DNA from: an uncultured Acetobacteraceae bacterium
GTDB taxonomy: Bacteria; Pseudomonadota; Alphaproteobacteria; Acetobacterales; Acetobacteraceae
Reading direction: 5' to 3'
Assembly: GCA_902805625.1 (NCBI GenBank)
Contig: CADCTL010000265.1
Span: 1 to 34,095, forward strand
Length of the DNA stretch: 34,095 nucleotides
Part shown: piece by piece, positions 17,456 to 33,267 of the stretch
How the letters are laid out: each line of letters starts with the position of its first letter
How positions within the stretch are numbered: the first letter of the stretch is position 1
Notes under the pieces: generated by a model
The model's input: only the letters and a program-made list of their open reading frames with translations
Databases searched by the model: none
What the model was told of the DNA's origin: nothing
Translations under genes and position numbers: made by a program

Positions 17456-18295
17456 TCACCCCGAGGCGCCGACGGTCCAGGCGGAGGCGAAGCGGCGGTC
17501 GCGGTTGTCTTCCGCTTCCACCCGCAGCTCGCCGCCCGCTTCCCCGGCCAGGGCGAAGCCGAAGGTGGGGTTCTCGGCGATGGAGATGTCGCATTCCACG
17601 CGCAGCACCTCGGCGCCGCGGTAGAGCACGCGGAGGGCGCGGACGAATTCCGCCGGGATGTTGAGGCGGGAGAGCTGGTCTATCTGCAGCCCGGAGGTGT
17701 TGGGGTGGCTGACCGCGATTTGGACCGGCACGGCGCGCTCCGGCCCTGTCGGCGGGCCTTCGGGGAGCGCCATCCGCATGCGGCCCATCCGCTCGCGCGC
17801 GGCGCGGAGGTCGGTGCCCACGGGCGCGGAGCAGCCGCCGGCGGCCTTCACGAACTGCGCCGTTTCCAGGAGTCGGCCGTCCCCGAACTCCGCCACGGCG
17901 TGCATCCAGGTGTAGGCGTCCACCCTCACGCGGGCGGAGAGCGCCCGCAGGTCGCCGGCCGGGCCGGCGCGGAACACGGCGGCGACGGGCGACGGGTTCT
18001 CGTCGATGACCAAGTGGATGGCTCGCACCCGCGGCGCGGCGTCGGCGGAGAGGGACAGCGAGATCGGCACTGCGGCGGCGTCGAGCGCGCGGGTTGGGGC
18101 GACCAGGGTGAGGGCGTCGCCCGCGGGCTCGGTGGGGCGGCCGTCGAAGATGGCTTCCTTCAGGTCGCGCCAGCGCTCGGCGCGGCGGGGGGTTTCGGCC
18201 GGTTCGATGCCTTGCGCCCGGCCGATGGCGGGCGCGAGCCAAGGGAGGCTGAGCGCACCGGCGAGCAGGGGACGCCTTGCGAGGGGTCGAACCAT
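17456..18295 (-). CDS. quinoprotein-associated SoxYZ-like fusion carrier protein
   Basis: A 279-residue periplasmic protein with a Tat-like leader (RRPLLAGALSLPWLAPA). An N-terminal SoxY-like half (about 40-150) ends in AAGGCSAPVG, and a C-terminal SoxZ-like half (about 175-279) follows. Cys155, flanked by glycines, stands where SoxY carries its substrate-binding cysteine on a swinging arm, but here it is internal because the two halves are fused. The family is known as SoxYZ-like carriers next to PQQ dehydrogenases; no function is proven. ATG 18295 is favoured over 18310: it has GGGAG eight bases upstream and avoids overlap with the preceding metallohydrolase stop. No other sox gene is present. 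Confidence 0.85.
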   Translation of the reverse strand: MVRPLARRPLLAGALSLPWLAPAIGRAQGIEPAETPRRAERWRDLKEAIFDGRPTEPAGDALTLVAPTRALDAAAVPISLSLSADAAPRVRAIHLVIDENPSPVAAVFRAGPAGDLRALSARVRVDAYTWMHAVAEFGDGRLLETAQFVKAAGGCSAPVGTDLRAARERMGRMRMALPEGPPTGPERAVPVQIAVSHPNTSGLQIDQLSRLNIPAEFVRALRVLYRGAEVLRVECDISIAENPTFGFALAGEAGGELRVEAEDNRDRRFASAWTVGASG

Positions 18296-18300
18296 GGCGG

Positions 18301-19227
18301 CTACTCCCATTCCAGTTCGCGGTAGGCAGTGGACACGTTGCGGCCGTGGTAGCTTTCGGCGAGGCGCCAGCGGGCGGCTTCCGTTGTCGCAACGCGCGCG
18401 GGCGCTTCCGCGATGCCGAGGCCGGACGCGATGGCGGCGCGGGTGCCTTCGCGCAGCGCTTCCAGGTAGCCTGCCAGCGCCATGCCAGCGGTGGGCCAGG
18501 GCACCGCCGGCGGGCCGTGGCCGGGCACCGCGCGTGCCGCCGGGCAGTCGCGCAGCGCCGCCAGCGCGCGCATCCAGCCGGAGAGGCTGCCGTCGAGCGA
18601 GGGGATGCGCTCCACGAAGAGCAGGTCGGACAGCCAGAGCGTGGACGTGGCGGAGTCGAACAGGCTGAGGTCGGCATCCGTGTGCGCCGGGCCGTGGGCG
18701 GCGATGGAGAGCGCGCGGCCGCCGCCGAGGTCTAAGTCGAACCGATCTTCGACCAGCCGGGTCGGCGGGAGCGCGTCGCTGCCGGCGGCGGCCGGGCCCA
18801 TCTCGCGCTCCAACATGCGTAGGTAGCCCTCACGCCGCTGCGCCAGGGCTTCGGGCAGGCGGGCGTGGCCGATCACCTCCGGGCGGAGGTCGGCGAAGGC
18901 GGCGGCGCCCATGACGTGGTCGGGGTGGGCGTGGGTGAGGACCAAGTGCCGGATCGGCAGCGGCGTGGCAGCCTCCACCGCGCGGCGGAGCCGTTGCCCG
19001 TGCGCGAGGCTGCCGCCGGGGTCCACCACGGCGACCGAGGCGCCGCCGACGATGAAGCCGACGTTGGCGATGGCGTTGCCATTGGTGGGCGAGGCGTCCT
19101 CGTGGACGCCGGGCAGGACGAAGACGCCGGGGGCGATTTGCGTGGGCTGTTCCGCGGGCGCAGCGGCGGCCAGCAGCGCCCCTCCGAGGCCGAGCAGCGC
19201 GGAGCGGCGGCCGGCGGAGGGGGCCAC
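18301..19227 (-). CDS. quinoprotein relay system zinc metallohydrolase (metallo-beta-lactamase fold)
   Basis: A 308-residue exported metal hydrolase. The N-terminus has a Tat-like leader (GRRSALLGLGGALLAAAAPA). The binuclear metal site is complete: HAHPDH at 99-104, His182 and Asp184 in HTDAD, Asp201 in LSDLLF and His237 in PGHGP. The family resembles SoxH-like hydrolases and occurs beside PQQ dehydrogenases, PqqE and SoxYZ-like proteins; its substrate is not established. Start GTG 19227 lies seven bases after the pqqE stop, and the SoxYZ-like gene starts five bases after its own stop, so all three are one operon. A glyoxalase II-like thioester or persulfide substrate is possible but unproven. 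Confidence 0.87.
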   Translation of the reverse strand: MAPSAGRRSALLGLGGALLAAAAPAEQPTQIAPGVFVLPGVHEDASPTNGNAIANVGFIVGGASVAVVDPGGSLAHGQRLRRAVEAATPLPIRHLVLTHAHPDHVMGAAAFADLRPEVIGHARLPEALAQRREGYLRMLEREMGPAAAGSDALPPTRLVEDRFDLDLGGGRALSIAAHGPAHTDADLSLFDSATSTLWLSDLLFVERIPSLDGSLSGWMRALAALRDCPAARAVPGHGPPAVPWPTAGMALAGYLEALREGTRAAIASGLGIAEAPARVATTEAARWRLAESYHGRNVSTAYRELEWE

Positions 19228-19234
19228 CGTGCGG

Positions 19235-20353
19235 TCAGCCCGCCGCCGGGGCGGGGGCGCGGCCCATCTCGCGGTAGGTGAAGTCGGGCGTGGCCTCGGC
19301 CGCTTCGCGCACCGCGAGGTCGAGCAGGGCGTGGTGCGGCGACAGGGCGCAGGCCGGGTCGGTGTTCGCGGCGTCGCCGGTGAGGGCGAAGGCTTGGCAG
19401 CGGCAACCGCCCCAGTCCTGCTCCTTCCGCGCGCAGCCGCGGCAGGGCTCGGGCATCCAGGCGGTGCCGCGGAAGCGGTTGAAGGCTTCGGAGTTGTTCC
19501 AGGCGTCCTGGAGCGACGTGGTCCGCAGGTCCGGGAAGGTGAAGCCGGGCAGGCTTTCCGCGGCGTGGCAGGGCAGCGCTAGGCCGGTGGGGGACACGGC
19601 CAGGAACTGCCGGCCCCAGCCGCCCATGCAGGCCTTGGGGAGCGTCGCGTAGTAGTCCGGCACCACGTAGTCGATGACCAGGCGGCCCTTCAACTCGTCC
19701 CGCGCCCGGTTCACCGTGTCCGTGGCGGCGTCGAGCTGGGCGCGGGTCGGCAGCAGCGCGGCGCGGTTGCGGAGGGCCCAACCGTAATACTGGACGTGCG
19801 CCACCTCCAGGCGGCCGGCGCCGAGGGCCAGGGCCAGTTCAATGAGGTCGGGCAGGCGGTCCAGGTTTTGCCGGTGGACCACGGCGTTGAGCGTCAGCGG
19901 CAGGCCGGCGGCGCGCACGATCGGGGCGAAGGCCAGCTTGCGGGAATGGCCGCCGGCGTAGCCGCCGATGCGGTCGGCGCTGCCCGCTTCCGCGTCCTGG
20001 ACGGAGAGCTGCACGTGGTCGAGGCCGGCTTCGACCAACTCGTTGAAGCGCCGCTCGTCCGTCAGCACGCCGGAGGTGATGAGGTTGGTGTAGAGCCCGG
20101 CCGAGACGGCGTGGCGGATGATGGCGGGGAGGTCGCGGCGCGCGGTGGGCTCGCCGCCCGACAGGTGGACCTGCAACACGCCGAGCGCCGAGGCTTCGGC
20201 GAAGATGCGGCCCCAGGTGGCGGCGTCCAACTCGCGCGAGGCACGGTGCAGCTCGGTGGGGTTAGAGCAGTACGGGCAACGCAGAGGGCAACGATGGGTA
20301 AGTTCGGCCAGGAGACCGAGCGGCGGCTGGGCGCGCATTTCGTCACCGGTCAT
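19235..20353 (-). CDS. pqqE: PqqE, radical SAM peptide glutamate-tyrosine ligase of PQQ synthesis
   Basis: It forms the carbon-carbon bond between Glu and Tyr of the PqqA peptide, the first step of PQQ synthesis. The 372-residue protein has the radical-SAM cluster cysteines 22, 26 and 29 (CPLRCPYC), the SAM motif GGEP near 67, and a SPASM domain with Cys242, 262, 304, 307, 317, 319 and 335 in CMGGWGRQF, LPCHAAE, PCRGC and GGCRCQ. Length and motif spacing are normal. It lies 76 bases downstream of a pqqA gene in the same direction. The usual companions pqqB, pqqC and pqqD (PqqD is the peptide chaperone for PqqE) are not here and must be elsewhere or fused elsewhere. Confidence 0.95.
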   Translation of the reverse strand: MTGDEMRAQPPLGLLAELTHRCPLRCPYCSNPTELHRASRELDAATWGRIFAEASALGVLQVHLSGGEPTARRDLPAIIRHAVSAGLYTNLITSGVLTDERRFNELVEAGLDHVQLSVQDAEAGSADRIGGYAGGHSRKLAFAPIVRAAGLPLTLNAVVHRQNLDRLPDLIELALALGAGRLEVAHVQYYGWALRNRAALLPTRAQLDAATDTVNRARDELKGRLVIDYVVPDYYATLPKACMGGWGRQFLAVSPTGLALPCHAAESLPGFTFPDLRTTSLQDAWNNSEAFNRFRGTAWMPEPCRGCARKEQDWGGCRCQAFALTGDAANTDPACALSPHHALLDLAVREAAEATPDFTYREMGRAPAPAAG

Positions 20354-20591: not shown

Positions 20592-23372
20592 TCACGTTAT
20601 CGCGATCATTGGCGCGGCGGCGGCGGTGCTCCGTTCGGCGGCTTCCACCCGCACGGCGCAGTATTTGAACTCCGGGATTTTGCCCCAGGGGTCCAGCTGC
20701 GGGTTGGTCAGCAGGTTGGCCGCCGCTTCGCGGAAGGCGAAGGGCACGAACACCATGCCTTCCGGCAAGGCGGGGTCGGCGCGGGCGTCGAGTTCGATGG
20801 CGCCCCGGCGCGTGGCGAGCCGCAGGCGCTGGCCCGGCAGGAGGCCGAGGCGGGCCAGGTCGCGCGGCGACAGGGAGGCTGTGGGGCCGGGCTCCAGGGC
20901 GTCGAGGGCGCCGGCGCGGCGGGTCATGGTGCCGGTGTGCCAGTGTTCGAGCTGCCGGCCGGTGGTGAGCACGAAGGGGTAGTCCCCGTCCGGCATCTCG
21001 GCCGGGTCGGTGAGGCCTGCCGGGACGAAGCGGGCGCGGCCGTTCGCGGTCGGGAAGGCGTCGCCGAAGACGATCTCGTCGCCCGGCGCGTCGGGGGCGG
21101 CGCAGGGGTAGGTCACGCTGTTTTCCCGCTCCAGCCGGTCCCAGGTGATGTTGGCGAGGGAGGGTGTCGCTAGGGCCATCTCGGCGAAGACCTCGCGCGG
21201 GCCGGCGTAGTCCCAAGCCAGGCCGAGGCGGCGGGCCAAGTCTTGGATGATCTCCAGGTCCTGGCGCGCGTCGCCCGGCAAGGGCACGGCGGCGCGGCCC
21301 ATCTGCACCTGGCGGTTGGTGTTGGTGGCGGTGCCGTCCTTTTCCGGCCAGGCGGAGGCGGGCAGGATCACGTCGGCCAGGGCCGCCGTTTCCGTCAGGA
21401 ACAGGTCTTGCACCACCAGGTGGTCGAGGCGCGCTAGCGCCTTGCGTGCGTGGTTCACGTCCGGGTCGGACATGGCCGGGTTCTCGCCCATGACGTACAT
21501 GCCGCGGAGGTCGCCGCGCTCCGCCGCGCCCATGATCTCCACCACCGTCAGGCCGGGCTTCGGGTCGAGAGTCGCGCCCCAGAGCCGTTCGAGGTGTCCG
21601 CGCGCTTCGTCGTCGCCGGTCGGGCGGTAGTCCGGGAACATCATCGGGATCAGGCCGGCGTCGGAGGCGCCCTGGACGTTGTTCTGGCCGCGGAGCGGGT
21701 GCAGCCCGGTGCCGGGGCGGCCGACCTGCCCGGTGAGCAGGGACAGCGCGATCAGGCAGCGGGTGTTGTCCGTGCCGTGGGTGGATTGCGAGATGCCCAT
21801 GCCCCACAGGATCATCGCCGTGCGGGCCCGCGCGAACATGCGCGCCACGCGGCGGATCTGCTCGGCGGGGACGCCGCAGAGCGGTGCCATGGCTTCGGGG
21901 GCGTAGGCGGCGACGTGGTCGCGGATGAGTTCGAAGTCCTCGGTGTGGGCGGCGACGTATTGCCGGTCGTAGAGCCCCTCCCCCACCACGACGTTGAGCA
22001 TGGCGTTGAGCAGCGGCACGTCGCGGCCGGGGGCGAAGCGGACGACCTCGGCGGCGTGGCGGTCGAGCGCGCTGCCGCGCGGGTCCATCGTGACGAGCTG
22101 CGCGCCGCGCGCGGCCGCGTCTTTCAGGTAGGTGGCGGCCACCGGGTGGTTCTCGGTCGGGCGGGCACCGATCACCACGATCACCTCGGCGTCCTTCGCC
22201 GCCATGAACGGGGCGGTGACGGCGCCGGAGCCGATGCCTTCCAGCAACGCGGCGACGGAGGCGGCGTGGCAGAGGCGGGTGCAGTGGTCCACGTTGTTGG
22301 TGCCGAAGCCGGTGCGGACCAGCTTCTGGAACAGGTAGGCTTCCTCGTTGGAGCCCTTGGCCGAACCGAAGCCGGCCAGCGCGTTCGGGCCGACCGTGTC
22401 GCGGACGCGGGCGAGGCCGGCGGCGGCGCGGTCCAGCGCCTCTTCCCAGGACGCTTCGCGGAACTTGGCGCGGGCGCGGCGCGGGTCGAGGCAGTCGGCC
22501 GGGTCCTTGGTTGCGCCTTCGACGCGGATCAGGGGCCGCGTCAGGCGGTCCGGGTGGCGGAGGTAGTCGAAGCCGAAGCGGCCTTTCACGCAGAGGCGGC
22601 CTTGGTTCGATGGCCCGTCGCGGCCGACCACCTCCTCGATGGCGCCGTCGCGCACGCGGAAGCCGACTTGGCAGCCGACGCCGCAGTAGGGGCAGACGCT
22701 GGCCACTTCCTTCACGGGCGGCGCGGCGCGGCGGCCGGTCTCGTCCAGCACGGATTTCGGCAGCAGCGCGCCGGTCGGGCAGGCCTGCACGCACTCGCCG
22801 CAGGCGACGCAGGAGGAGGGGCCCATGGGGTCGAGGAGGTCGAAGGAGACCGTCACCTCCATGCCGCGCCGGGCCATGCCGATGACGTCGTTGTGCTGCA
22901 CCTCGCGGCAGGCGCGCTCGCACAGGCCGCACTGGATGCAGGCGTCGAGCTGCACCGCCATGGCGGGGTGCGAGAGGTCGGGCGCGGGTTGCTCGGCTTC
23001 GGGCGCGAAGCGGGAGGCTTCGAGGCCGAGGTGGCGGGTCCAGCGCGCGAAGCCGCCGGTGTCGTCGCGTGCTCCGGCGTCGGGTTGGTCGGCCAGCAGC
23101 AGCTCGAACACCATGCGCCGCGTCTGCTTGGCGCGCTCGCTCGCCGAGCGGACCACCATGCCTTCGCGGGGCGTGCGGATGCAGGAGGCGGCGAGGACGC
23201 GCTCGCCCTCGACCTCGACCATGCAGGCGCGGCAGTTGCCGTCCGGGCGGTAGCCGGGGCGCGGCAGGTGGCAGAGGTGCGGGATTTCCACGCCTTCGCG
23301 CTGCGCCACGGTCCAGATCGACTCGCCGGGCGCTGCCTCGACCTCGCGGCCGTCCAGGGTGAAGCGGATCAC
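20592..23372 (-). CDS. fdhA: NAD-dependent formate dehydrogenase, catalytic alpha subunit (Mo/W-bis-MGD)
   Basis: It oxidises formate to CO2 and passes electrons through iron-sulfur clusters to FdhB. The 926-residue protein has a 2Fe-2S domain (Cys34, 47, 50, 64), two 4Fe-4S sites (Cys145/148/151/155 and Cys188/191/194/198), a further 4Fe-4S site (Cys227/230/234/261) and the active site HCTRLCHAAS, where Cys368 should bind the metal and His369 assist. A C-terminal molybdopterin-binding domain starts near TTGRQLEHWHTGTM. The extra His/Cys cluster of some homologues (DHP plus cysteines) is absent, reading ADQPDAG instead. GTG 23372 overlaps the fdhB stop as GTGA; the frame runs further upstream but inside fdhB. 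Cytoplasmic; it completes methanol oxidation begun by XoxF. Confidence 0.94.
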   Translation of the reverse strand: MIRFTLDGREVEAAPGESIWTVAQREGVEIPHLCHLPRPGYRPDGNCRACMVEVEGERVLAASCIRTPREGMVVRSASERAKQTRRMVFELLLADQPDAGARDDTGGFARWTRHLGLEASRFAPEAEQPAPDLSHPAMAVQLDACIQCGLCERACREVQHNDVIGMARRGMEVTVSFDLLDPMGPSSCVACGECVQACPTGALLPKSVLDETGRRAAPPVKEVASVCPYCGVGCQVGFRVRDGAIEEVVGRDGPSNQGRLCVKGRFGFDYLRHPDRLTRPLIRVEGATKDPADCLDPRRARAKFREASWEEALDRAAAGLARVRDTVGPNALAGFGSAKGSNEEAYLFQKLVRTGFGTNNVDHCTRLCHAASVAALLEGIGSGAVTAPFMAAKDAEVIVVIGARPTENHPVAATYLKDAAARGAQLVTMDPRGSALDRHAAEVVRFAPGRDVPLLNAMLNVVVGEGLYDRQYVAAHTEDFELIRDHVAAYAPEAMAPLCGVPAEQIRRVARMFARARTAMILWGMGISQSTHGTDNTRCLIALSLLTGQVGRPGTGLHPLRGQNNVQGASDAGLIPMMFPDYRPTGDDEARGHLERLWGATLDPKPGLTVVEIMGAAERGDLRGMYVMGENPAMSDPDVNHARKALARLDHLVVQDLFLTETAALADVILPASAWPEKDGTATNTNRQVQMGRAAVPLPGDARQDLEIIQDLARRLGLAWDYAGPREVFAEMALATPSLANITWDRLERENSVTYPCAAPDAPGDEIVFGDAFPTANGRARFVPAGLTDPAEMPDGDYPFVLTTGRQLEHWHTGTMTRRAGALDALEPGPTASLSPRDLARLGLLPGQRLRLATRRGAIELDARADPALPEGMVFVPFAFREAAANLLTNPQLDPWGKIPEFKYCAVRVEAAERSTAAAAPMIAIT

Positions 23373-25048
23373 GGCACGGCCTCCGGGAAATGGCGCAGGA
23401 AGGTCAGAACGGGGTTCATCGCCGCTTGGCCGAGGCCGCAGATGGAGCCGTCGGCCATGGCCGCCGCCAGCTCCTTCAGCAGCGCGCGGTCCCACGCCGG
23501 GGCGTCGAGCATCCGCACGGCTTTGGCGGTGCCGACGCGGCAGGGGGTGCACTGGCCGCAGGTCTCGTCCTTAAAGAAGTGGACGAGGTTGCGGACCGCC
23601 TCCGGCAGGTCGTCCTTGTCCGATAGGATCACCACGGCGCCGGAACCGACGAAGCAGCCTTCCGCGTCCAGGGTGCCGAAGTCGAGCGGCAGGTCTGCGA
23701 GGGCGGCGGGCAGGATGCCGCCCGAGGCGCCGCCGGGCAGGTAGGCCGCGAAGCGGTGGCGGGGCAGCATGCCGCCGGAGAACTCCTCGATCAGCTCGCG
23801 CGCCGTGACGCCGGCGGGCGCGAGCTTCTCGCCCGGTTCCCGCACGCGCCCGGAGACGCTGAAGAAGCGCACGCCGTGGCGGCCGCGGCGGCCCATCGAC
23901 GCGTGGCGGGCGGCGGCGGCTGGCTCGGACAAAATTTCCGGGAGAAGCCAGAGGGTTTCGACGTTGTGGATCAAGGTCGGGCGGCCGAAGAGGCCGGACT
24001 CGCCCGGGAAGGGCGGCTTGTGGCGCGGGTAGCCGCGCCGGCCTTCGAGGCTTTCCAGCAGCGCGGTTTCCTCGCCGCAGATGTAGGCGCCGGCGCCGCG
24101 GCGCAGGTGGATGGGCTTGTCCGCGAGGCCGGCGGCGGCCAGCGCCGCGATCTCGCGCTCCAGCATGCGGCGGAGGTGCGGGTACTCGTCACGGAGGTAG
24201 ATCCAGCAGGCTTCGGCTTCGATGGCGTGGGCGGCGACCAGCATGCCTTCCAGCATGCGGTGCGGCTCCTTCTCCAGGCAGTAGCGGTCCTTGAAGGTGC
24301 CGGGCTCGCCCTCGTCGGCGTTGACCACCAAGTGGCGCGGGCCGGGCTGCGCCATGACCAGGCGCCACTTGCGGGCGGCGGGGAAGCCGGCGCCGCCCAG
24401 GCCTCGCAGCGCGCCCGCTTCGAGGGCGGCCAGGATCGTGTCGCGCGCGCCTTCCTCGTTCCGGCGGGCGGTTCGCAGCGCGGCGTAGCCTCCGCGCGCG
24501 AGGTAGCTTTCGAGGTTGGGCGGATCGGGGAGCGGCGGCGCGCCGTGGGCTACCGCGTCGGCGACCGAGGCGGGCGTCGCGCGTTCGATCAGTTCGTGGC
24601 CGAGGGCACAGGCAGGGGCGCGGTGGCAGGCGCCGATGCAAGGGGCGGACACGACGCGCACCCCGGCCGTCGGCGGCTTGGCGCGCAGGGCGGCGATCAG
24701 CTCGTGCGCGCCGGCCAGGGCGCAGGGCAGGCTCTCGCAGACGCGCACCGTGACGGGTCCGGGCGCCGGGGCCGCGTCCTCCAGCACCTCGAAGTGGTGG
24801 TAGAAGGTGGCCACCTCGAAGACCTCCACCGGCGCCAGGCGCAGGCGCTCGGCGAGGGCGACGAGGTGGCCGGCGCGGAGGCAGCCGTGGCGGTCTTGCA
24901 GCGCGTGCAGGTGCTCGATGAGCAGGTCGCTCCGCGGGGCGAGGCCCGCGGTCGCCTCGGCCACCGCTTCGCGCGCTTCCGCGTCCGCCACCCGGCCGCG
25001 CGGGCCGTGCCGCGGCCCGCGCCGGGGCGGGGTCGCCATGATCGTCAA
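23369..25048 (-). CDS. fdhB: formate dehydrogenase beta subunit, NuoE-NuoF fusion (diaphorase)
   Basis: It transfers electrons from FdhA to NAD+. The 559-residue protein joins a NuoE-like 2Fe-2S domain (about 25-165, with CESLPC and CIGAC cysteines) to a NuoF-like domain (about 190-559). The latter has FMN-binding LGGAGFPAARKW, NADEGEPGTFKDR, GAGAYICGEETALL and the 4Fe-4S motif CGQCTPCR with a later Cys in SICGLG. Such fusions are known in Methylorubrum-type tungsten FDH1. Start TTG 25048 is preferred because GAGGA lies seven bases upstream; ATG 25039 would remove three residues. It lies 10 bases after a small cysteine protein and overlaps fdhA. Confidence 0.93.
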   Translation of the reverse strand: MTIMATPPRRGPRHGPRGRVADAEAREAVAEATAGLAPRSDLLIEHLHALQDRHGCLRAGHLVALAERLRLAPVEVFEVATFYHHFEVLEDAAPAPGPVTVRVCESLPCALAGAHELIAALRAKPPTAGVRVVSAPCIGACHRAPACALGHELIERATPASVADAVAHGAPPLPDPPNLESYLARGGYAALRTARRNEEGARDTILAALEAGALRGLGGAGFPAARKWRLVMAQPGPRHLVVNADEGEPGTFKDRYCLEKEPHRMLEGMLVAAHAIEAEACWIYLRDEYPHLRRMLEREIAALAAAGLADKPIHLRRGAGAYICGEETALLESLEGRRGYPRHKPPFPGESGLFGRPTLIHNVETLWLLPEILSEPAAAARHASMGRRGRHGVRFFSVSGRVREPGEKLAPAGVTARELIEEFSGGMLPRHRFAAYLPGGASGGILPAALADLPLDFGTLDAEGCFVGSGAVVILSDKDDLPEAVRNLVHFFKDETCGQCTPCRVGTAKAVRMLDAPAWDRALLKELAAAMADGSICGLGQAAMNPVLTFLRHFPEAVP

Positions 25049-25058
25049 TGGTTCGTCC

Positions 25059-25406
25059 TCATTGGAAGCAGCGCAGGGTGGCCTCCGCCTGCGCCCGGCG
25101 GAGGTCCTCCACCGCGGCGCGGACCCCGGGCGGGTCGCGGAACATGGCGGAGCGCTCGCCGAGGTTGCCGGCCTGCATGCGGAGCGCGGTGTCGGCCGCC
25201 TCGTACTTGGCGTAGGGCACCTGCTCGGCGATGGCGTCGAGGCTGCACGAACAGCGCTCCAGCGCCAGGCGCGAGTTGCCGTTGGCCGCCATGCAGCCGA
25301 GCACGTAGTCGGCGCGCGCCGCGGTCGGGAAGTCGTTCGCCGCCGCGCCGCGGAGCGCGCCGCCGAGCAGCAGGGCGGCCAAGGCGGCGGCGCGCCCCGA
25401 CGTCAT
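25059..25406 (-). CDS. secreted small cysteine protein of unknown function
   Basis: A 115-residue protein with a signal peptide (cleavage expected near GAAA, residues 20-23). The mature part is helical in character and has four cysteines: 38, 52, 54 (CSC) and 113. The segment DYVLGCMAANG...RCSCSLDAIAEQVPY seems the conserved core; I recall similar hypothetical proteins beside PQQ dehydrogenase genes but know no function. Its ATG at 25406 overlaps the stop of the upstream unknown gene as ATGA, and fdhB begins 10 bases after its own stop, so the three are translated from one message. Periplasmic location contrasts with the cytoplasmic formate dehydrogenase; XoxF or its cytochrome is the likelier partner. 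Confidence 0.75.
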   Translation of the reverse strand: MTSGRAAALAALLLGGALRGAAANDFPTAARADYVLGCMAANGNSRLALERCSCSLDAIAEQVPYAKYEAADTALRMQAGNLGERSAMFRDPPGVRAAVEDLRRAQAEATLRCFQ

Positions 25407-26092
25407 CCGGCGCCCTCCGCCAACCGGGCGGTTCCCGCGAAGGCGATGCTTTCCACCACCGCGCCCGCCTCGCCCGTGGCGGGGAGTTCCGCGCGGATGG
25501 CGTGGACGGAGCCCGGCACAGCTTCGGACAGCGTGAAGGCGTAGAACCGGTGCTGGTAGCGGCCGGCGCGCGCCTCGCCCTTGTAGGGGGAGAGCGTGAT
25601 GACGCTGGCGGGCACGCGGCGGCCGTCGTGCTCGATCTCGGCGGGGCGCAGTTCGGCGGCGGTGGCCAGCGCCTGCCGGAAGCGGTTGCGGAACCAGGTC
25701 GGCGTGCCGCCCGTGGCCGCGCTCAGTTCGCGGGTGTCGCGGTCGAGCGCGAAGAGCAGGAGCGGGTTGCCGCGGAAGTTCGACGCCGGCGGGTACGGGA
25801 GGGCGCGCGGGCCGGTCAGGAACTCAGGCGACACGTGGCAACAGCCGTTCCCGTCGGCCAGGGCGCGGACCGCCAACCGGATGGTGTCGGAGACCGGATC
25901 CTTGCCCGCCTCCTCGCGGCGGAAGGCGTAGTCGAGCCGTAGCGGCGGTCGGAGCGAGGCGAGGTGGGGGGTCTCGAACAGGGCGAGTTGCGCCGGCGAC
26001 ATGGCGGCGCGCGCGTCCTTCGCCGCGTCCTCCGCGCCGCCGAGCAAGGGTGCGGCCGCGGCCGCGGCGAGCACGCTCCGCCGCTGGATCAT
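25403..26092 (-). CDS. secreted protein of unknown function with vicinal cysteines
   Basis: A 229-residue protein. The start at ATG 26092 gives a Tat-like leader (MIQRRSVLAAAAAAPLLGG) and has GGGAGG about 12 bases upstream; the frame extends to 26155 with no such features. The mature part (from about 22) shows DYAFRREEAG, an adjacent cysteine pair Cys84-Cys85 in GNGCCHVSPEFLTG, and NPLLLFALDRDTREL. No family is recognised. It is the first gene of the leftward FDH/PQQ run and is divergent from xoxF, 288 bases away. Adjacent cysteines also occur in XoxF itself (disulfide ring), which may be coincidence. Function unknown. Confidence 0.72.
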   Translation of the reverse strand: MIQRRSVLAAAAAAPLLGGAEDAAKDARAAMSPAQLALFETPHLASLRPPLRLDYAFRREEAGKDPVSDTIRLAVRALADGNGCCHVSPEFLTGPRALPYPPASNFRGNPLLLFALDRDTRELSAATGGTPTWFRNRFRQALATAAELRPAEIEHDGRRVPASVITLSPYKGEARAGRYQHRFYAFTLSEAVPGSVHAIRAELPATGEAGAVVESIAFAGTARLAEGAG

Positions 26093-26380
26093 CCCTGGAC
26101 TTCCCTCCCTGCCTGCATTGTCCTGAAACTTAGTGCGCTTGGGCGCGCCGCGCATCCCGCCGCGGCTCCCGATCGGGCTGGCGGCCTGGCCATCTCATAT
26201 TCGTGAGCACATTTTTCTTTCTCGCGGCATGCTTGTGTTCGGACGATTTCGCCCGATACCGTCCATTGCAGGCGAGCGGGGCTTCACCCGCGACGCGTCC
26301 TCTGCGAAGGTCGGCACCGCTTGCCGGATGCGCCAGGGGACGATTGCGGCCACGGCGCCGGCGATGGAGGAACGAACAAA
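26093..26380. promoter_or_regulatory. divergent control region between xoxF and the FDH/PQQ run
   Basis: This 288-base gap must hold the promoters of both operons. An AT-richer patch lies at about 26199-26230. A weak rightward pair TTGTGT...GATACC (near 26233-26260) is the only sigma-70-like pattern I could find, and I do not rely on it. The last bases (GGAGG, 26366-26370) are the xoxF ribosome site. No coding sequence was recognised within it. Confidence 0.5.
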
Positions 26381-28174
26381 ATGGTGAGACGGTTTGCCTT
26401 GGCGGCAATGGCCGCCCTGGCTCTCGGGGCGGGAAGCGCCTCCGCCAACCAAGAGTTGCTGCAGATGCAGCGCGACCCGAACCAGTGGGTCATGCCGACC
26501 GGCAACTATGCCAATTGGCGCTACAGCGAACTCAACCAGATCAACCGCGAGACCGTGCGCAACCTGCGCCCGTCCTGGCAATTCTCGACCGGCGTGCTGC
26601 GCGGCCACGAGGGCGGCCCGCTCGTCGTCGGCGACATGATGTACATCCACACGCCGTTCCCGAACCGCGTGTTCGCCATGGACCTGAACACGCCCGGGCG
26701 GGTCATCTGGCGCTACGAGCCGCAGCAAGACCCGACCGTCATCGGCGTGATGTGTTGCGACACCGTGAACCGCGGCCCGGCCTACGGCGACGGCAAGATC
26801 ATCCTCAGCCAGGCGGACACCACCCTCGTCGCGCTCGACGCCAAGACCGGCAAGGAAATCTGGAAGGTCAAGAACGGCGACGCCGCCAAAGGCGAGACCT
26901 CGACGATGGCGCCGATGATCTTCGGCGACAAGGTCCTGGTCGGCATCTCCGGCGGCGAGTACGGCGTGCGCGGGCACGTCACCGCGTACAACCTGCGCGA
27001 CGGCTCGCAGGCGTGGCGCGCCTACTCGGTCGGCACGGACGAGGACATCAAGGTCGATCCGCAGCGCACCACGCACATGGGCCAGCCGGTGGGCGCGAAC
27101 AGCTCCATCAGTTCCTGGCAAGGCGACCAGTGGAAGCTGGGCGGCGGCACCACTTGGGGCTGGTTCTCCTACGACCCCGAGTTGAACCTGATCTACTACG
27201 GCACCGGCAACCCCGGCACCTGGAACCCGTCGCAGCGGCCCGGCGACAACAAGTGGTCCATGACCATCATGGCGCGTGACGCCAACACCGGCGTGGCGCG
27301 CTGGTTCTACCAGATGACTCCGCACGACGAGTGGGACTACGACGGCGTCAACGAGATGATCCTCGTGGACAACCTCACCGTCCGCGGCCAGCGGGTGCCC
27401 AAGGCGCTGGTCCACTTCGACCGCAACGGCTTCGCCTACACCATGAACCGCGAGAACGGCGCGTTGCTGGTGGCGGAGAAGTTCGATCCGGCGGTGAACT
27501 GGGCTTCGCACGTGGACATGCAGACGGGCCGCCCGCAGGTGGTGCGCGACTTCTCCACCCGGGCCGGCGGCGAGGACAAGAACGTCCAGAACATCTGCCC
27601 GGCCGCGCTCGGCACCAAGGACCAGCAGCCGGCCGCCTTCTCGCCGCGCACGGGCATGTTCTACGTGCCGACGAACCACGTGTGCATGGACTACGAGCCG
27701 TTCCGCGTGTCCTACACCGCCGGCCAGCCCTTCATCGGGGCGACGCTGTCGATGTACCCGCCGAAGGGCGAGCAGAACCTGGGCAACTTCATCGCGTGGG
27801 ACGCCGCCGCGGGCAAGATCGTGTGGTCGCGGCCGGAGCGCTTCTCGGTGTGGTCCGGTGCTCTGGCGACCGCGGGCGACATCGCCTTCTACGGCACGCT
27901 TGAGGGCCACCTGAAGGCAGTCGATGTGCGCGACGGCAAGGAGCTGTTCTCCTACCGCACGCCGTCCGGGATTATCGGCAACATCAACACCTTCACCCAC
28001 CGCGGCAAGCAGTACGTGGCGGTGCTGTCGGGCGTGGGCGGCTGGGCCGGGATCGGCATGGCGGCCGGGCTGGAGGGGTCCAGCGAGGGCCTCGGTGCGG
28101 TCGGCGCCTACCGGGCGCTGTCCGACTACACGCAGCTCGGCGGCGTGCTGACGGTGTTCGCACTGCCGGACTGA
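26381..28174 (+). CDS. xoxF: lanthanide-dependent PQQ methanol dehydrogenase XoxF
   Basis: A periplasmic quinoprotein that oxidises methanol, in some cases further to formate, passing electrons to cytochrome XoxG. The 597-residue protein starts at ATG 26381 after GGAGG, with a signal peptide ending near SASA (22). Eight-bladed propeller tryptophan motifs recur. The vicinal disulfide Cys125-Cys126 ([10 protein letters not shown]), metal ligands Glu193 (GGEYG) and Asn277 (GTGNP), catalytic Asp319 and the extra Asp321 in [10 protein letters not shown] are all present. Asp321 is the residue that marks lanthanide-using XoxF; calcium-type MxaF has Ala there. No mxaI-like small subunit gene is present. 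Substrate might include other short alcohols, but XoxF identity is firm. Confidence 0.97.
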
Positions 28175-28238: not shown

Positions 28239-28293
28239 GTTTCCGTTCCGGCTCCGCTTTCCGGCGGTGCCGGCAGGAGGGAATGCAGAACCG

Positions 28294-28719
28294 ATGAACA
28301 CCAGACTTGTCGTTGCAGCAGCAGGCGCGCTGTGCCTCGCGCTCGCCGCCCCGCCGCCGTCCGCCGTGTCGGCGGAGGAGGAGAAACCCTACAAGGTCGT
28401 GGACGGCAAGGTGGACCGCGAGACCTTCAACGGCTACCGCCGGTACGGCAATTCCTGCCTGCAATGCCACGGGCCGGACGGGTCGGGCAGCTCTTACGCG
28501 CCGAACCTGACCGAGTCGTTGAAGCACATGGACTACGTCGCGTTCTCCGACGTGGTCATCAACGGCCGCCAGAACGTCACGCAATCGCAGCAGAACGTCA
28601 TGCCGTCCTTCGGCCACGTCGAGGACGTCGCGCTCTACATCAACGACATCTACGGCTACCTGAAGGCCCGCTCCGACGGCGCGCTCGGCCGCGGCCGGCC
28701 GCAGCGGCTGGACAACTAG
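28294..28719 (+). CDS. xoxG: XoxG-type cytochrome c, electron acceptor of XoxF
   Basis: A 141-residue periplasmic class I cytochrome c that takes electrons from XoxF. After a signal peptide (cleavage near SAVSA, 23-27), the heme site CLQCH (Cys55, Cys58, His59) is seen, and Met103 in VMPSFG is the likely sixth ligand. The sequence after the heme, GPDGSGSSYAPNLTESLKHM, fits methanol-dehydrogenase cytochromes rather than respiratory cytochrome c. ATG 28294 gives a clean leader; GGAGG lies 13 bases upstream, farther than usual. It stands between xoxF and xoxJ in the normal order, but shorter than some XoxG proteins, with no second heme motif. Confidence 0.92.
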   Translation: MNTRLVVAAAGALCLALAAPPPSAVSAEEEKPYKVVDGKVDRETFNGYRRYGNSCLQCHGPDGSGSSYAPNLTESLKHMDYVAFSDVVINGRQNVTQSQQNVMPSFGHVEDVALYINDIYGYLKARSDGALGRGRPQRLDN

Positions 28720-28722
28720 GCG

Positions 28723-29544
28723 GTGCGCCGCGCGCTCCTCGCCGCCGCCGCGGCTCTGGCGCTCATCGCCGCGCCCGCGGCTCGGGCGCAGACGGGCGAG
28801 CTGGTCGCGGCCGACGCGCTGCGGGTGTGCGCGGACCCGGCCAACCTGCCCTTCTCGAACGAGCGCGGGGAAGGCTTCGAGAACCGCGTCGCCGCGCTGC
28901 TCGGCCGCGCGCTGGACCGGCCGGTGGAGTACGTGTTCTTCCCGCAGGTGCAGGGCTTCGTGCGGAACACGCTCCGCGCCGGCCGCTGCGACCTGGTGAT
29001 GGGGACGGTCGCAGGCGACGACCTGATGCAGAACACCAACCCCTACTACCACACCTCTTACGTGCTGGTGTTCCGCCGCGGCGCCGCCGAGCCGCCGCCG
29101 GAGCGGCTGGACGACCCGCGCATGCGCTCCCTCCGCCTCGGGGCGGTCGCGCGCACGCCGCCGGTGGACCTGCTGGTGCGGAACGGCTTGGTGGAGAACA
29201 CGCGCTTCTTCCGCTTGGCGGTAGACACGCGGGTCGAGGCGCCGGGCGCCGACCTGGTGCGCGCGGTGGCGGAGGGCGAGTTGGACGCGGCGCTGGTCTG
29301 GGGGCCGATCGCCGGCTACCAGGCGAAGGTCAAGAACCTGCCGATCGAGCTGCGCGCGCTGCCGACGGAGCCCGGCGCGGCGCGCATGGACTTCCGCATC
29401 ACCATGGGCGTGCGGGGGCAGGAGCCGGAATGGCGCCGCCGCATCAACGCCGCCATCCGCGACAAGCAAGGCGAGATCGACGGCATCCTGCGCGAGTACG
29501 GCGTGCCGTTGCTGGACGCGCAAGGGCGTTTGCGGGAGCCGTGA
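28723..29544 (+). CDS. xoxJ: XoxJ, quinoprotein-associated periplasmic binding protein
   Basis: A 273-residue periplasmic protein of the solute-binding fold, in the family of binding proteins associated with quinoprotein dehydrogenases. The GTG start at 28723 lies three bases after the xoxG stop, and the leader ends near ARAQ (20-23). Characteristic stretches are LRVCADPANLPFSNERGEGF, YVFFPQVQGFVRNTL, CDLVMGTVAGDD and NTNPYYHTSYVLVF. XoxJ/MxaJ proteins are thought to help mature or activate the dehydrogenase rather than to serve a transporter, and no membrane partner is adjacent. Its TGA shares one base with the ATG of the next gene (TGATG). Confidence 0.93.
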   Translation: MRRALLAAAAALALIAAPAARAQTGELVAADALRVCADPANLPFSNERGEGFENRVAALLGRALDRPVEYVFFPQVQGFVRNTLRAGRCDLVMGTVAGDDLMQNTNPYYHTSYVLVFRRGAAEPPPERLDDPRMRSLRLGAVARTPPVDLLVRNGLVENTRFFRLAVDTRVEAPGADLVRAVAEGELDAALVWGPIAGYQAKVKNLPIELRALPTEPGAARMDFRITMGVRGQEPEWRRRINAAIRDKQGEIDGILREYGVPLLDAQGRLREP

Positions 29545-30098
29545 TGCCCCGGCGCCGGCTCGCCTTCCTCGCATCGGCCCTGCTGCTGCTCGCGGGCGCC
29601 GGGGAGGAGGTCGGCTGGCCGGAAGGCGGAGGCTTCCGCACGGACGACTACCGCGCGCCGACACCCCTGACCGTGCCCGGCGGGCGCACCATCGACACGC
29701 AGGAAGCGCGGGCGCTGTTCGAACGGCGCGGCGCGGTGTGGATGGACGTGCTGCCCGCGGCGCGCCGGCCGGAGGGGCTGGCGCCGGGCGCGCTTTGGCG
29801 GCCGAGCCCGCGCCTCGGCATCCCGGGGAGCTTGTGGTTGCCCGAGGCCGGCGGGGGGGCGCTGTCCCCCGCGGTTGAGGCTTGGTTCCGCGACACGCTT
29901 GCGGGCGCGACCGGCGGCGACCTCGGCCGGCCCGTGGTATTCTACTGCCTGGCCGATTGCTGGCGGAGCTGGAACGCCGCGAAGCGCGCCGCTGGCTGGG
30001 GCCACCGCGAGGTACTGTGGTACCGCGACGGCACCGACGGGTGGGAAGCGGCCGGCTTGCCTACCGAGGTGTTGCATCCCGCCCCTGGCGGGCCGTGA
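29544..30098 (+). CDS. PQQ-catabolism-associated CxxxCW motif protein, rhodanese-like
   Basis: A 184-residue exported protein with a signal peptide (RRRLAFLASALLLLAGAG). The fold looks rhodanese-like, and the defining motif is YCLADCWRSWNAAKRA: Cys135 and Cys139 followed by Trp140, near the usual position of the rhodanese active loop. This family accompanies PQQ-alcohol dehydrogenases and their ABC transporter; its role is unproven, with redox or persulfide chemistry suggested by the cysteines. GGGAG lies five bases before the ATG, which overlaps the xoxJ stop by one base. It ends 10 bases from the end of the convergent transporter operon. An earlier rhodanese-type Cys is absent, so sulfur transfer is not assured. 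Confidence 0.88.
   Translation: MPRRRLAFLASALLLLAGAGEEVGWPEGGGFRTDDYRAPTPLTVPGGRTIDTQEARALFERRGAVWMDVLPAARRPEGLAPGALWRPSPRLGIPGSLWLPEAGGGALSPAVEAWFRDTLAGATGGDLGRPVVFYCLADCWRSWNAAKRAAGWGHREVLWYRDGTDGWEAAGLPTEVLHPAPGGP
30078..30092. terminator. short hairpin at the convergent junction
   Basis: CCCGCC and GGCGGG pair over six bases around a CCT loop, inside the last codons of the CxxxCW gene and 17 bases before the stop codon of the convergent gene. A weak bidirectional terminator is possible. Confidence 0.25.
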
Positions 30099-30108
30099 GG
30101 GCGCCGCC

Positions 30109-30708
30109 TCAATCGTTCGGCAGCGCCGCGGCCAGCGCGCGGGCGTAGGCGCCGAGCCGGCCTTCCAGCCGCACCGGCGCTTCGCAGGCGTAGCGCATCG
30201 TGCGCTCCGCGTCCGTGAAGGATTTCGCGGCGAAGGCGTGGCGCTGTTCCAATTCCGTGCGGGCAGCGCCGGCGTCGGCCGGCGTCGCGCGCAGTTCGCC
30301 CTCCAAGCGGCGCACGCCTTCGGCCAAGTCGCGTTGCCGGCGGGCGAAGCGGCGGATCTGCTCGAGCAGCGCGTCGCGCTGCTTGTTCGTTTCCTCCAGC
30401 ACGCCGGCGAAGGCCAGGGGCAGCAAGCGCCGGCGGGATGCGGGGTCGAGCGGCGCGGCGAAGGCCTCGATTGCGGCCGTCCCTTCCTCCTCCGGCACCG
30501 CGCGGGGCGCGATGCGCCCGACCAGCGCCGCCACGCCTTCGGCCGCGCGCCATTCGCCTTCCGGCGGCGGGCCGGGCCAGAGCGCCGCCGCCGCCAAGCG
30601 CGGCACGAACCGTTGCACGCAGGGCCAGTCCGCATCCGGCGAAGGTCCAGCGGCGGCCAGCGCCAGCGCGGCGGCGAGGGCTGCGGTCCGGCGCAGGCGG
30701 GCGTTCAC
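30109..30708 (-). CDS. secreted coiled-coil protein of unknown function in the ABC operon
   Basis: A 199-residue protein with a signal peptide (LRRTAALAAALALAAAG). The mature part contains Cys30 in DADWPCVQRFVPRL and Cys175 in RYACEAPV, which could form one disulfide, and a charged helix from about 105 to 172 (ETNKQRDALLEQIRRFARRQ onward) likely to form a coiled coil. GTG 30708 overlaps the permease stop as GTGA, so it belongs to the ABC-transport operon. Methylorubrum lut clusters also encode small exported proteins next to the permease; equivalence is only a guess. No enzymatic motif is seen. Confidence 0.75.
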   Translation of the reverse strand: MNARLRRTAALAAALALAAAGPSPDADWPCVQRFVPRLAAAALWPGPPPEGEWRAAEGVAALVGRIAPRAVPEEEGTAAIEAFAAPLDPASRRRLLPLAFAGVLEETNKQRDALLEQIRRFARRQRDLAEGVRRLEGELRATPADAGAARTELEQRHAFAAKSFTDAERTMRYACEAPVRLEGRLGAYARALAAALPND

Positions 30709-31511
30709 GCCGCGGCGGTCCGGCGGGCGAGCATGCCGCGCTGCGGGTCGTAGCCGAGCACGGCGAGCGCGCCGAAGGCGAGCAGCGCCACGGACACCAC
30801 GGCGAAGGAGAGGGGGTCGAAGCGGAGGTAGAGCGCGAAGCGGACCAGCTCCACCGCGTGGGTGAAGGGGTTCGCCATGCAGGCCCAGTAGAGCGGCAGG
30901 CTCGCTTCCCGCACCCGCCACAGGGGGTAGAGGGCGGAAGAGGCGAAGAACATCGGGAAGATCACGAAGTTCATCACGCCGGCGAAGTTCTCGAGCTGCT
31001 TGATCCAGGACGAGAGCAGCAAGCCGAGCGCGCCCAGCATCATGCCGGCGAGCACCAGCGCCGGCAGCGCGGCGAGATAGCCGAGCGCGGGCGGCTCGAC
31101 CTCCCAGAAACGGGCCAGGGCCAGAAACACGTAGCACTGCAGCACGCCGACCAGCACGCCCGCGAGCAACTTGGAGAACAGCAGCCACCAGCGCGGCAGC
31201 GGGCTGGTCAGCAGCACGCGCATGGAGCCCACCTCGCGGTCGTAGACCATGGAGAGGCTGCTCTGCATGCCCTGGAACAGCAGGATCATGCCGAGCAGGC
31301 CGGGGGCGATGTAGGTTTCGTACAGCACGTAGGTCTCGTAGGGCGGGCTGATGGACACGCCGAGGACGAAGCGGAAGCCGGCGGCGAAGATCGCCAGCCA
31401 CACCAGCGGCCGCACCAGCGCCGACAGGAAGCGGCCGCGCTGGTGGACGAAGCGCAGCGCTTCCCGCCGGGCGATGCCGGCGAAGCAGCGGAGGTAGGCG
31501 GCGGCGGTCAT
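30705..31511 (-). CDS. ABC-2 type permease of the PQQ-alcohol dehydrogenase-linked system (PedC/LutF-like)
   Basis: A 268-residue inner-membrane protein with six expected membrane segments and the ABC-2 signature region around SSLSMVYDREVGSMRVLLTS (about 85-105). The ending segment NPFTHAVELVRFALY is also typical. The family is the permease of the system linked to PQQ-dependent alcohol oxidation; homologous Pseudomonas PedA1A2BC and Methylorubrum Lut systems have been tied to lanthanide uptake. ATG 31511 overlaps the ATPase stop as ATGA and has GGAG eight bases upstream. The exporter-type fold beside a binding protein is unusual for an importer. Confidence 0.88.
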   Translation of the reverse strand: MTAAAYLRCFAGIARREALRFVHQRGRFLSALVRPLVWLAIFAAGFRFVLGVSISPPYETYVLYETYIAPGLLGMILLFQGMQSSLSMVYDREVGSMRVLLTSPLPRWWLLFSKLLAGVLVGVLQCYVFLALARFWEVEPPALGYLAALPALVLAGMMLGALGLLLSSWIKQLENFAGVMNFVIFPMFFASSALYPLWRVREASLPLYWACMANPFTHAVELVRFALYLRFDPLSFAVVSVALLAFGALAVLGYDPQRGMLARRTAAA

Positions 31512-32296
31512 CGTTCGCGCTCCGGGGCGGCGGTCAGACGCGCGAAGGCCTCGCCCATCGTGGCCGCGTCGTCGGCTTGCGCCAGCACCTCCGGCACGGC
31601 GCCGTCCGCCCGCACCTCGCCGTCCCGCAATACGACCACGCGCGCGTCGTCCCCAACCTCGTCGATCAGGTGCGTGGCCCAGAGCACGGCGAGGCCCTCG
31701 TCCCGGCACAGGCCGCGCACGTGGTCCAGCAGGAAGGCGCGGCTCGCGGCGTCGAGGCCCACGGTCGGCTCGTCCAGCAGCAGCAGCGAGGGGCGGGTGA
31801 GCAGGGCACGGGCGATCTCCGCGCGGCGGCGCTGCCCGCCGGACAGGTTCCGTGCCCGCTCCGCCGCGCGGTCGCCGAGGCCGACGCGCTCCAGCTCGCG
31901 CCCGGCGCGCGCGCGCGCCTCGGCCCCGGGCAGTCCGTGCAGCGCCGCGTGGTAGAACAAGCTTTCCCGCACCGAGAGGTCGGGGTCCAAGGTGGGTTGT
32001 TGGAACACCACGCCGAGCGCGGCGAGCGCGCGCCCCGGCTCGCGGCGCAGGCTGGCGCCGAAGACGCGGATGTCGGCCTCGCCCGGGGCGTCGAACAGCC
32101 GGGTGACGAGGGCGAAGAGCGTGCTCTTGCCCGCGCCGTTGGGCCCGAGCAGCACCGTGAACTCGCCCGGCAGGATGCGGAAGCCCACGCCTCGCAGCGC
32201 CGGGCGCTTGCCGTAGGCGAAGGACAGGCGCTCCACTTCGAGCGCCGGCGCTTGGCTGGCGGTGGCCATCGTCGGGCGCGGCATGGCGACGGTCAC
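31508..32296 (-). CDS. ABC transporter ATPase of the PQQ-alcohol dehydrogenase-linked system (PedB/LutE-like)
   Basis: A 262-residue ATP-binding subunit. Walker A is GPNGAGKST, the Q-loop VVFQQPTLDPDLSV, the signature LSGGQRRR, Walker B LLLLDEPTVGLD and the switch histidine WATHLIDEV, all intact and correctly ordered. GTG 32296 is chosen because it overlaps the beta-propeller stop as GTGA, like the other junctions of this operon; ATG codons at 32284 and 32269 are alternatives without good ribosome sites. It energises the permease encoded directly downstream. Confidence 0.9.
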   Translation of the reverse strand: MTVAMPRPTMATASQAPALEVERLSFAYGKRPALRGVGFRILPGEFTVLLGPNGAGKSTLFALVTRLFDAPGEADIRVFGASLRREPGRALAALGVVFQQPTLDPDLSVRESLFYHAALHGLPGAEARARAGRELERVGLGDRAAERARNLSGGQRRRAEIARALLTRPSLLLLDEPTVGLDAASRAFLLDHVRGLCRDEGLAVLWATHLIDEVGDDARVVVLRDGEVRADGAVPEVLAQADDAATMGEAFARLTAAPERER

Positions 32297-33267
32297 GGCC
32301 GCACCACCACACCCCAGGGCGCCTGCCCCACGGGCACGGAGCGCACCACGCGCAGCCCCGCGGTGTCGATCACCGAGAGGTCGTTGCTGACGCCGTTGGT
32401 GGTGTAGAGCCGCGAGCCGTCCGGCGAGAGGGCCAGGTTCCAAACGCGCTGGCCGACCAGAAGGTAGCGCTCGACGGCCAGGCTGCGCGTGTCCACCACC
32501 GCGACGCGGTTGGCGGGGCCGAGCGCCACGAACAGCCGCGCCCCGTCGCGCGACAGGGCCATGCCCACCGGCTGGATCGCCTCGGGCGGCACGCCGGGGA
32601 CGGCGAAGGACACGGTGGCCGCCGCGCGCCAAGTGCCGGTCTCGACCACGGTGAGCGTGCCGCCGATCTCGGCGGACACCCAAAAGCGCTTGCCGTCCGC
32701 GTCCCACACCGCCGCGCGCGGGCGGGCGCCCACCAGGACGTTCGCCGTCACCGCGCCGGTGTCCGCCTCGATCACGTGCGCCATGTTGGTGGTTTCGGAG
32801 GTGTTGACCACGTAGCGGCCGTCCGGGCTGATGCCCATGCCCTCCGGCTCGACGCCCACGGGTATCTCGTTGAGCACGACGCCGCGTTCCACGTCCACCA
32901 CCGTGACCATGTTGTCGTCCTCGTTGGCGACGAACAGGCGGCGGCCGTCCGGGTGCAGGGCGGCCAGCTCCGGGTCGGAACCGGCGGGCAGGTGGCGCAC
33001 TACCTGCCAAGTCTCCAGGTCGAGCACCTCAACCCGGTCGCTGTCGCCGGCGCAGACGTAGAGGTGCCGGCCGTCGCGGGACAGCGCGATGCCGCGCGGC
33101 CGCTCTCCCACCGGCACCGTGCGGAGCACCCGGAGCGTGGCGCCGTCGAGCGCCGTGACCGTGTTGTCCTTCTCGTTCGAGACGAGGACCAGTTCGGCCC
33201 TCGCGGGGCCGGCCGCGAGGGCGAGCGCTAGCGCCGCGGCGCGGAGGGGAGTCAGCGGAAGCGGCAT
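32293..33267 (-). CDS. PQQ-catabolism-associated YVTN beta-propeller protein
   Basis: A 324-residue periplasmic protein with a signal peptide ending near GPARA (about 19-24) and some seven repeats of the YVTN type, for example LVLVSNEKDNTVTALDG, RLFVANEDDNMVTVVD and RLYTTNGVSNDLSVID. It should fold as a beta-propeller. The family travels with PQQ-alcohol dehydrogenase genes and corresponds in place to PedA2 or LutD of lanthanide-linked operons. Acidic loop residues (NEKD, NEDD) recur at equivalent repeat positions, which could bind metal; this is inference. ATG 33267 lies inside the end of the upstream gene with GGAGA four bases before it, a 16-base overlap. Confidence 0.9.
   Translation of the reverse strand: MPLPLTPLRAAALALALAAGPARAELVLVSNEKDNTVTALDGATLRVLRTVPVGERPRGIALSRDGRHLYVCAGDSDRVEVLDLETWQVVRHLPAGSDPELAALHPDGRRLFVANEDDNMVTVVDVERGVVLNEIPVGVEPEGMGISPDGRYVVNTSETTNMAHVIEADTGAVTANVLVGARPRAAVWDADGKRFWVSAEIGGTLTVVETGTWRAAATVSFAVPGVPPEAIQPVGMALSRDGARLFVALGPANRVAVVDTRSLAVERYLLVGQRVWNLALSPDGSRLYTTNGVSNDLSVIDTAGLRVVRSVPVGQAPWGVVVRP

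Follow-up and report, generated by a model that had tools for sequence, protein, structure and literature searches.

What do three exported proteins reminiscent of periplasmic sulfur chemistry contribute around a methanol dehydrogenase? The question is raised by the window, a 34,095-nucleotide stretch of DNA that was analysed in full and that forms a lanthanide methanol-oxidation island in an Acetobacteraceae-like metagenome genome (3.77 Mb, 77% complete); among named genomes, the closest SoxYZ locus belongs to a Craurococcus MAG (76% identity). The first-pass annotation proposed a thiol or persulfide relay that forms, repairs or protects the vicinal Cys125-Cys126 disulfide of XoxF or that handles a thiol adduct of formaldehyde.

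The first two proteins are encoded at the coordinates first annotated, on the minus strand, by ORFs that overlap by 10 bp: a fused, exported SoxYZ-like carrier (17456..18310) and a SoxH-like binuclear metallohydrolase with a GTG start (18301..19227). The carrier contains Pfam SoxY and SoxZ domains and matched TIGR04557 at 227 bits (cut-off, 140) over profile positions 1-225 of 226. Its arm, KAAGGCSAP, contains the annotated Gly-Gly-Cys155, which is Cys155 when counted from the second Met and Cys160 when counted from the first ATG. The hydrolase matched TIGR04559, the quinoprotein relay system zinc metallohydrolase 2 family, at 348 bits (cut-off, 280), and the binuclear site described as intact does retain all seven metal-site positions. 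The third protein, the PQQ-associated CxxxCW rhodanese-like exported protein (29547..30098, plus strand), matched TIGR03865 at 200.7 bits (cut-off, 128), with a weak Rhodanese Pfam match and a match to the YgaP rhodanese in the PDB, and keeps C134, C138, and W139. In alignments built on 80 SoxYZ loci from named genomes, which were gathered with alignment A2 and are thus biased towards XoxF-clade SoxYZ, the arm Cys was invariant (79 of 79 aligned sequences, the window included), H99, H101, D103, H104, H182, D201, and H237 of the SoxH-like protein were kept in 71 to 72 of 72, and the two cysteines and the tryptophan of the CxxxCW protein were kept in 53 of 53.

The AF2 model of the SoxYZ-like protein (mean pLDDT, 85.5) consists of a SoxY domain and a SoxZ domain, each with a TM of about 0.8 to its Paracoccus counterpart, and places the arm, at low confidence, in an internal loop before the SoxZ domain. 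The likeness to true SoxYZ therefore extends to both folds and to a carrier Cys after Gly-Gly, but the window encodes one fused chain with GGCSAP in an internal loop rather than at a free GGCGG end. Scores against the true-Sox families fell below cut-off (50.6 versus 125 bits for TIGR04488 and 47.2 versus 76 bits for TIGR04490). Thus, the resemblance to Sox proteins that was first remarked upon is real, but these proteins belong to dedicated quinoprotein-associated families, each matched above its NCBIfam cut-off. Family scores and co-occurrence together identify the trio as members of known quinoprotein-associated families. Earlier publications already describe the trio, connect it with PQQ alcohol dehydrogenases, and raise the disulfide idea (PMC12997753, PMC11237559, PMC11582611).

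The soxH-like and soxYZ-like genes end a co-directional minus-strand run that contains, in order, genes for an exported Orf7 homologue without conserved Cys (25403..26155; identified by the orf6-orf7-pqqE synteny in Methylorubrum), an exported Orf6 homologue of 115 amino acids with four invariant Cys (25059..25406; identified by synteny and genome distribution), a formate dehydrogenase specified by two ORFs, and PqqE (19235..20353; TIGR02109, 555 bits). The formate dehydrogenase ORFs encode a NuoE/NuoF-like fused subunit (23369..25048; NuoF and NuoE family matches, both under cut-off) and an alpha subunit whose start codon is uncertain (20592..23552; TIGR01591, 705 bits). Divergent from this run, the plus strand encodes the lanthanide-type methanol dehydrogenase XoxF (26381..28174, in an ORF that opens at 26321; TIGR03075, 727 bits, and motifs), a XoxG-like cytochrome c (28267..28719; best match TIGR03874 at 145 bits, slightly under the cut-off of 161.75), a XoxJ-like periplasmic binding protein (28723..29544; TIGR03871, 286 bits), and the CxxxCW protein. 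Past the CxxxCW gene lies an ABC system on the minus strand, composed of an ABC-2-type permease that is PedC-like by position (30705..31530), adjoins the ATPase, and belongs to a permease family recurring in 22 loci; a PedB-like PQQ_ABC_ATP ATPase (31508..32350; TIGR03864, 322 bits); a PedA2-like PQQ_ABC_repeats beta-propeller (32293..33327; TIGR03866, 469 bits); and a PedA1-like PQQ_ABC_bind substrate-binding protein (33252..34095; TIGR03863, 343 bits), a fragment that leaves the window. PedB, PedA2, and PedA1 are parts of a transporter described as essential for lanthanide-dependent PedH growth (PMC12997753). Adjoining the permease gene is a minus-strand gene (30109..30711) for an unannotated protein with conserved C31 and C176, which had no Pfam match and has homologues in 29 of the 80 loci; it is possibly an uncharacterised component of a PedA1A2BC-type transporter.

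We asked where the trio occurs among 150 Pseudomonadota genomes (sample 1) and among 185 genomes mostly of other genera (sample 2). Fused SoxYZ occurred in 16 genomes of sample 1, all 16 of which encode a PQQ alcohol dehydrogenase (PQQ-ADH) relative to a background of 30 of 150 (Fisher p=1e-13), and in 21 genomes of sample 2, 20 of which have a PQQ dehydrogenase (p=4e-17), with the proviso that genomes in these counts and p values are not phylogenetically independent. The one genome in which a PQQ dehydrogenase was not found is 75% complete. The other two families followed the carrier: in sample 1, CxxxCW proteins above cut-off were found in 15 genomes, every one with fused SoxYZ, and SoxH-like proteins above cut-off were found in 11, all among the same 16, with a lower-scoring SoxH-like gene adjoining SoxYZ in the other five. 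In sample 2, fused SoxYZ and unfused SoxY-SoxZ pairs showed no association (p=0.29). SoxB was present in 6 and missing in 10 of the 16 trio genomes of sample 1, a weak and non-significant excess among PQQ-ADH genomes (6/16 versus 1/14; p=0.09). We likewise did not find SoxB in the whole host genome at its 77% completeness, in line with the annotated absence of thiosulfate-oxidation genes. These co-occurrence counts in two samples link the trio with PQQ dehydrogenases rather than with thiosulfate oxidation, so that co-occurrence independent of PQQ dehydrogenases, the pattern that would have spoken against the proposed relay, was not observed. This coupling agrees with published statements.

The partner enzyme is not restricted by metal type. 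The trio adjoins Ca-type enzymes with a DFS motif in two genomes (G054 and G143 C1) and lanthanide-type enzymes elsewhere, and it is absent from seven genomes with lanthanide-type enzymes; we therefore rejected a lanthanide-specific role. The trio was also absent from all seven sample 1 genomes that have quinohemoprotein-type enzymes only.

Related arrangements have been described in two other systems. Pseudomonas putida PP_2677, PP_2678, and PP_2666 belong to TIGR04557, TIGR04559, and TIGR03865 above cut-off and are linked to PQQ alcohol dehydrogenases, as in the window, and both clusters place the rhodanese-like gene next to PedA1A2BC-type genes. The partners differ, being PedE and PedH in P. 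putida but XoxF with formate dehydrogenase, PqqE, and the Orf6 and Orf7 homologues in the window. The arm differs as well between GGCSAP in the window and GGGCTxP in a second SoxYZ subgroup that lies beside several PedH/ExaA-type enzymes. In Thiodiazotropha, SoxYZ-S4/SoxYZ-S2 are, like the window protein, fused SoxYZ adjoining soxH, formate dehydrogenase, and xoxF, and a role in carbon metabolism or methanol dehydrogenase protection has been proposed for them; Thiodiazotropha also encodes SoxB, however, which was not found in the genome of the window (PMC11237559).

The vicinal cysteine pair at the center of the original proposal is present in XoxF, with Cys125-Cys126 confirmed when counted from the Met at 26381, together with a second pair (Cys406/435) and the metal motif DYD. 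Vicinal Cys-Cys is found in nearly all PQQ alcohol dehydrogenases that we examined, whereas the second pair is found in MDH-clade enzymes (XoxF and MxaF) and is absent from PedH, ExaA, and quinohemoproteins. A function of the trio in installing or repairing the vicinal disulfide has already been proposed, beside a PQQ-protection alternative (PMC12997753), and is favored by the co-occurrence of three thiol-capable exported proteins with vicinal Cys-Cys enzymes and by the presence, in 10 of the 80 loci, of a thioredoxin-like gene next to the trio. However, the trio is missing from 14 of the 30 PQQ-ADH genomes of sample 1, the enzymes of all of which keep Cys-Cys, and, across the samples, from three XoxF genomes (G070, G174, and G314). 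The metallohydrolase, moreover, has no evident part in disulfide formation. Genetic data point in the same direction. A published transposon selection in Methylorubrum extorquens that recovers mutants not making formaldehyde via XoxF returned 28 recurrent genes, including xoxF1, xoxG, xoxJ, pqq genes, lut genes, orf6, and orf7, but not META1p1703-1705, the trio homologues of this species (PMC12997753); genes hit at least four times are listed, with which a weak requirement for the trio remains compatible. Because Cys-Cys enzymes occur without the trio and the screen did not list it, the trio does not appear to be a general disulfide installer: it is unlikely to be generally required for disulfide formation, and we regard installation or repair of this disulfide as quite improbable. 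Of the relay first proposed, then, the link to PQQ dehydrogenases stands, and the formation or repair of the XoxF disulfide is weakened. By its distribution, the trio is thus set apart from Sox as well as from any lanthanide specificity or general disulfide requirement.

Two further explanations bear on the chemistry of the carrier arm. In an aldehyde relay, a tethered counterpart of the glutathione route, formaldehyde from XoxF would be bound to the SoxYZ arm as an S-hydroxymethyl adduct, the quinoprotein would oxidize this adduct to S-formyl, and SoxH would then release formate by hydrolysis for use by the neighboring formate dehydrogenase. In favor of this relay, SoxH shares the metallo-beta-lactamase fold with its relative hydroxyacylglutathione hydrolase, formate dehydrogenase lies within the same gene run, and a formaldehyde-consuming system would escape a selection for formaldehyde loss. 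Few loci, however, have formate dehydrogenase near the trio (7 to 8 of 80), the rhodanese-like CxxxCW protein is left unexplained, and ExaA-type ethanol dehydrogenases are also accompanied by the trio. Glutathione-dependent formaldehyde dehydrogenase was neither complementary to the trio nor enriched with it (12 of 16 trio genomes versus 12 of the 14 other PQQ-ADH genomes), and we rejected any dependence of the trio on that enzyme, no relation being evident within PQQ-ADH genomes. We consider the aldehyde relay unlikely. Ordinary Sox function, with the trio as a side branch of thiosulfate oxidation, could draw on the retained SoxY and SoxZ folds and on SoxB in the 6 of 16 trio genomes noted above, but SoxB is missing from the remainder and was not found in the host of the window, SoxY-SoxZ pairs show no association, and the carrier scores lie far under the true-SoxY and true-SoxZ cut-offs. 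Furthermore, in canonical carriers the arm forms a free tail at the C terminus, and canonical Sox enzymes are therefore unlikely to act similarly on the internal loop of the SoxYZ-like protein. This explanation is disfavored as very improbable.

We tentatively favor, at somewhat less than an even chance, a model where the trio serves soluble PQQ alcohol dehydrogenases as a periplasmic module for sulfur clearing or repair that acts conditionally. The SoxYZ-like protein would use its Cys160 arm to remove nucleophilic sulfur species (sulfite, thiols, or sulfane sulfur) from PQQ or from the active-site disulfide, the SoxH-like metallohydrolase would cleave the carrier-bound adduct by hydrolysis, and the CxxxCW rhodanese-like protein would hand on or resolve leftover sulfane sulfur; the trio would be neither a general installer of the vicinal disulfide nor a component of thiosulfate oxidation. 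We favor sulfur clearing or repair because the carrier Cys and the hydrolase site are strictly conserved, sulfur adducts of PQQ have been reported, and growth of Hyphomicrobium denitrificans on methanol, but not on formate, is reportedly inhibited by thiosulfate (PMC12997753). H. denitrificans itself has a clade-4 SoxYZ (PMC11237559), and protection by the trio must therefore be incomplete there. The module is presented as conditional rather than required because the trio is unlisted in the XoxF-loss screen and has a minimal effect in P. putida RB-TnSeq, the latter under lanthanide-free conditions (PMC12997753).

If XoxF has a specific thiol partner, the Orf6 homologue is a better candidate for it than the trio. 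In sample 1, it was found in exactly the 12 XoxF-type genomes, including the trio-less G070, and in sample 2 it was found in 19 genomes, all with XoxF as called by bit scores against a XoxF alignment and by motif checks of fetched loci. One sample 2 dehydrogenase that scored in the XoxF range (G215) proved to be MxaF-type, and its genome is without an Orf6 homologue. Over both samples, the homologue is present in 30 of 30 distinct XoxF genomes and in 0 of 30 with other PQQ dehydrogenases only, a correlation that would also arise from clade membership alone. Because the Orf6 gene lies far from xoxF or on a different contig in several genomes (G279, G219, G159, G004, and G059), the coupling is more than physical linkage. 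This strict tracking of XoxF across two samples is the new observation of this analysis. In sample 1, the Orf7 homologue was confined to XoxF genomes and occurred in 6 of these 12 (6 of the 150 genomes overall).

The gene at 25059..25406 corresponds to orf6 by synteny, since the Methylorubrum order xoxF, xoxG, xoxJ, Orf6 gene, Orf7 homologue, pqqE (L278 and L280, and in part L279, where xoxF is outside the fetched stretch) matches META1p1740-1742 and 1746-1748. Through these three Methylorubrum genomes, 25059..25406 and 25403..26155 are equated with M. extorquens AM1 orf6 (META1p1746) and orf7 (META1p1747), both of which have lanthanide-specific methanol growth defects (PMC7391723). On methanol with La3+, growth rates were 0.16 per hour for the wild type, 0.03 for the orf6 deletion, and 0.04 for the mutant in xoxF1 and xoxF2; the orf6 defect was seen only when La3+ was supplied (PMC7391723). 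The literature searched gave no mechanism for orf6 or orf7. C38, C52, C54, and C113 of the Orf6 homologue are invariant in 49 of 49 aligned sequences; the protein had no Pfam or NCBIfam match and no convincing PDB sequence match, and its all-helical AF2 model (pLDDT, 84) had no PDB fold match with an E below 0.001. Considering the two cysteine pairs of XoxF, Orf6 may plausibly act in the folding or disulfide chemistry of this enzyme. The fuller proposal, in which Orf6 serves XoxF alone as a thiol-disulfide or folding factor and the trio is a separate conditional repair module serving soluble PQQ alcohol dehydrogenases of either metal type, is possible but doubtful. If this reading of Orf6 is true, lanthanide methanol dehydrogenases have their own private maturation protein, and Orf6 offers a concrete target for the study of their maturation.

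Other neighbors of the trio vary among the 80 loci. YeeE-type sulfur importers are reported to adjoin the trio in H. denitrificans, but we recognised none among the recurrent neighbors in these loci and rejected such an importer as a constant partner. In 20 loci, SoxYZ has as recurrent neighbors an NMT1-type binding protein and a permease that belong to an ABC importer, for example in Bradyrhizobium (L122, about 12.3 kb; L137, about 11.4 kb). In 10 loci (L104, L105, L109, L111, L115, L121, L129, L135, L141, and L167), mostly from Methylobacterium/Methylorubrum and other methylotrophs, a thioredoxin-fold protein bearing a CPAC motif is encoded after SoxYZ and CxxxCW near 11.3 kb. Finally, the genome of the window contains a second fused SoxYZ-like gene (G000:C77:17351-18037; L071 8322-9242, minus strand) that is 58% identical to the first, has lost the carrier Cys, the only such loss found, in an arm reading SRGFSAP, and lies near an obgE-like gene, distant from PQQ genes.
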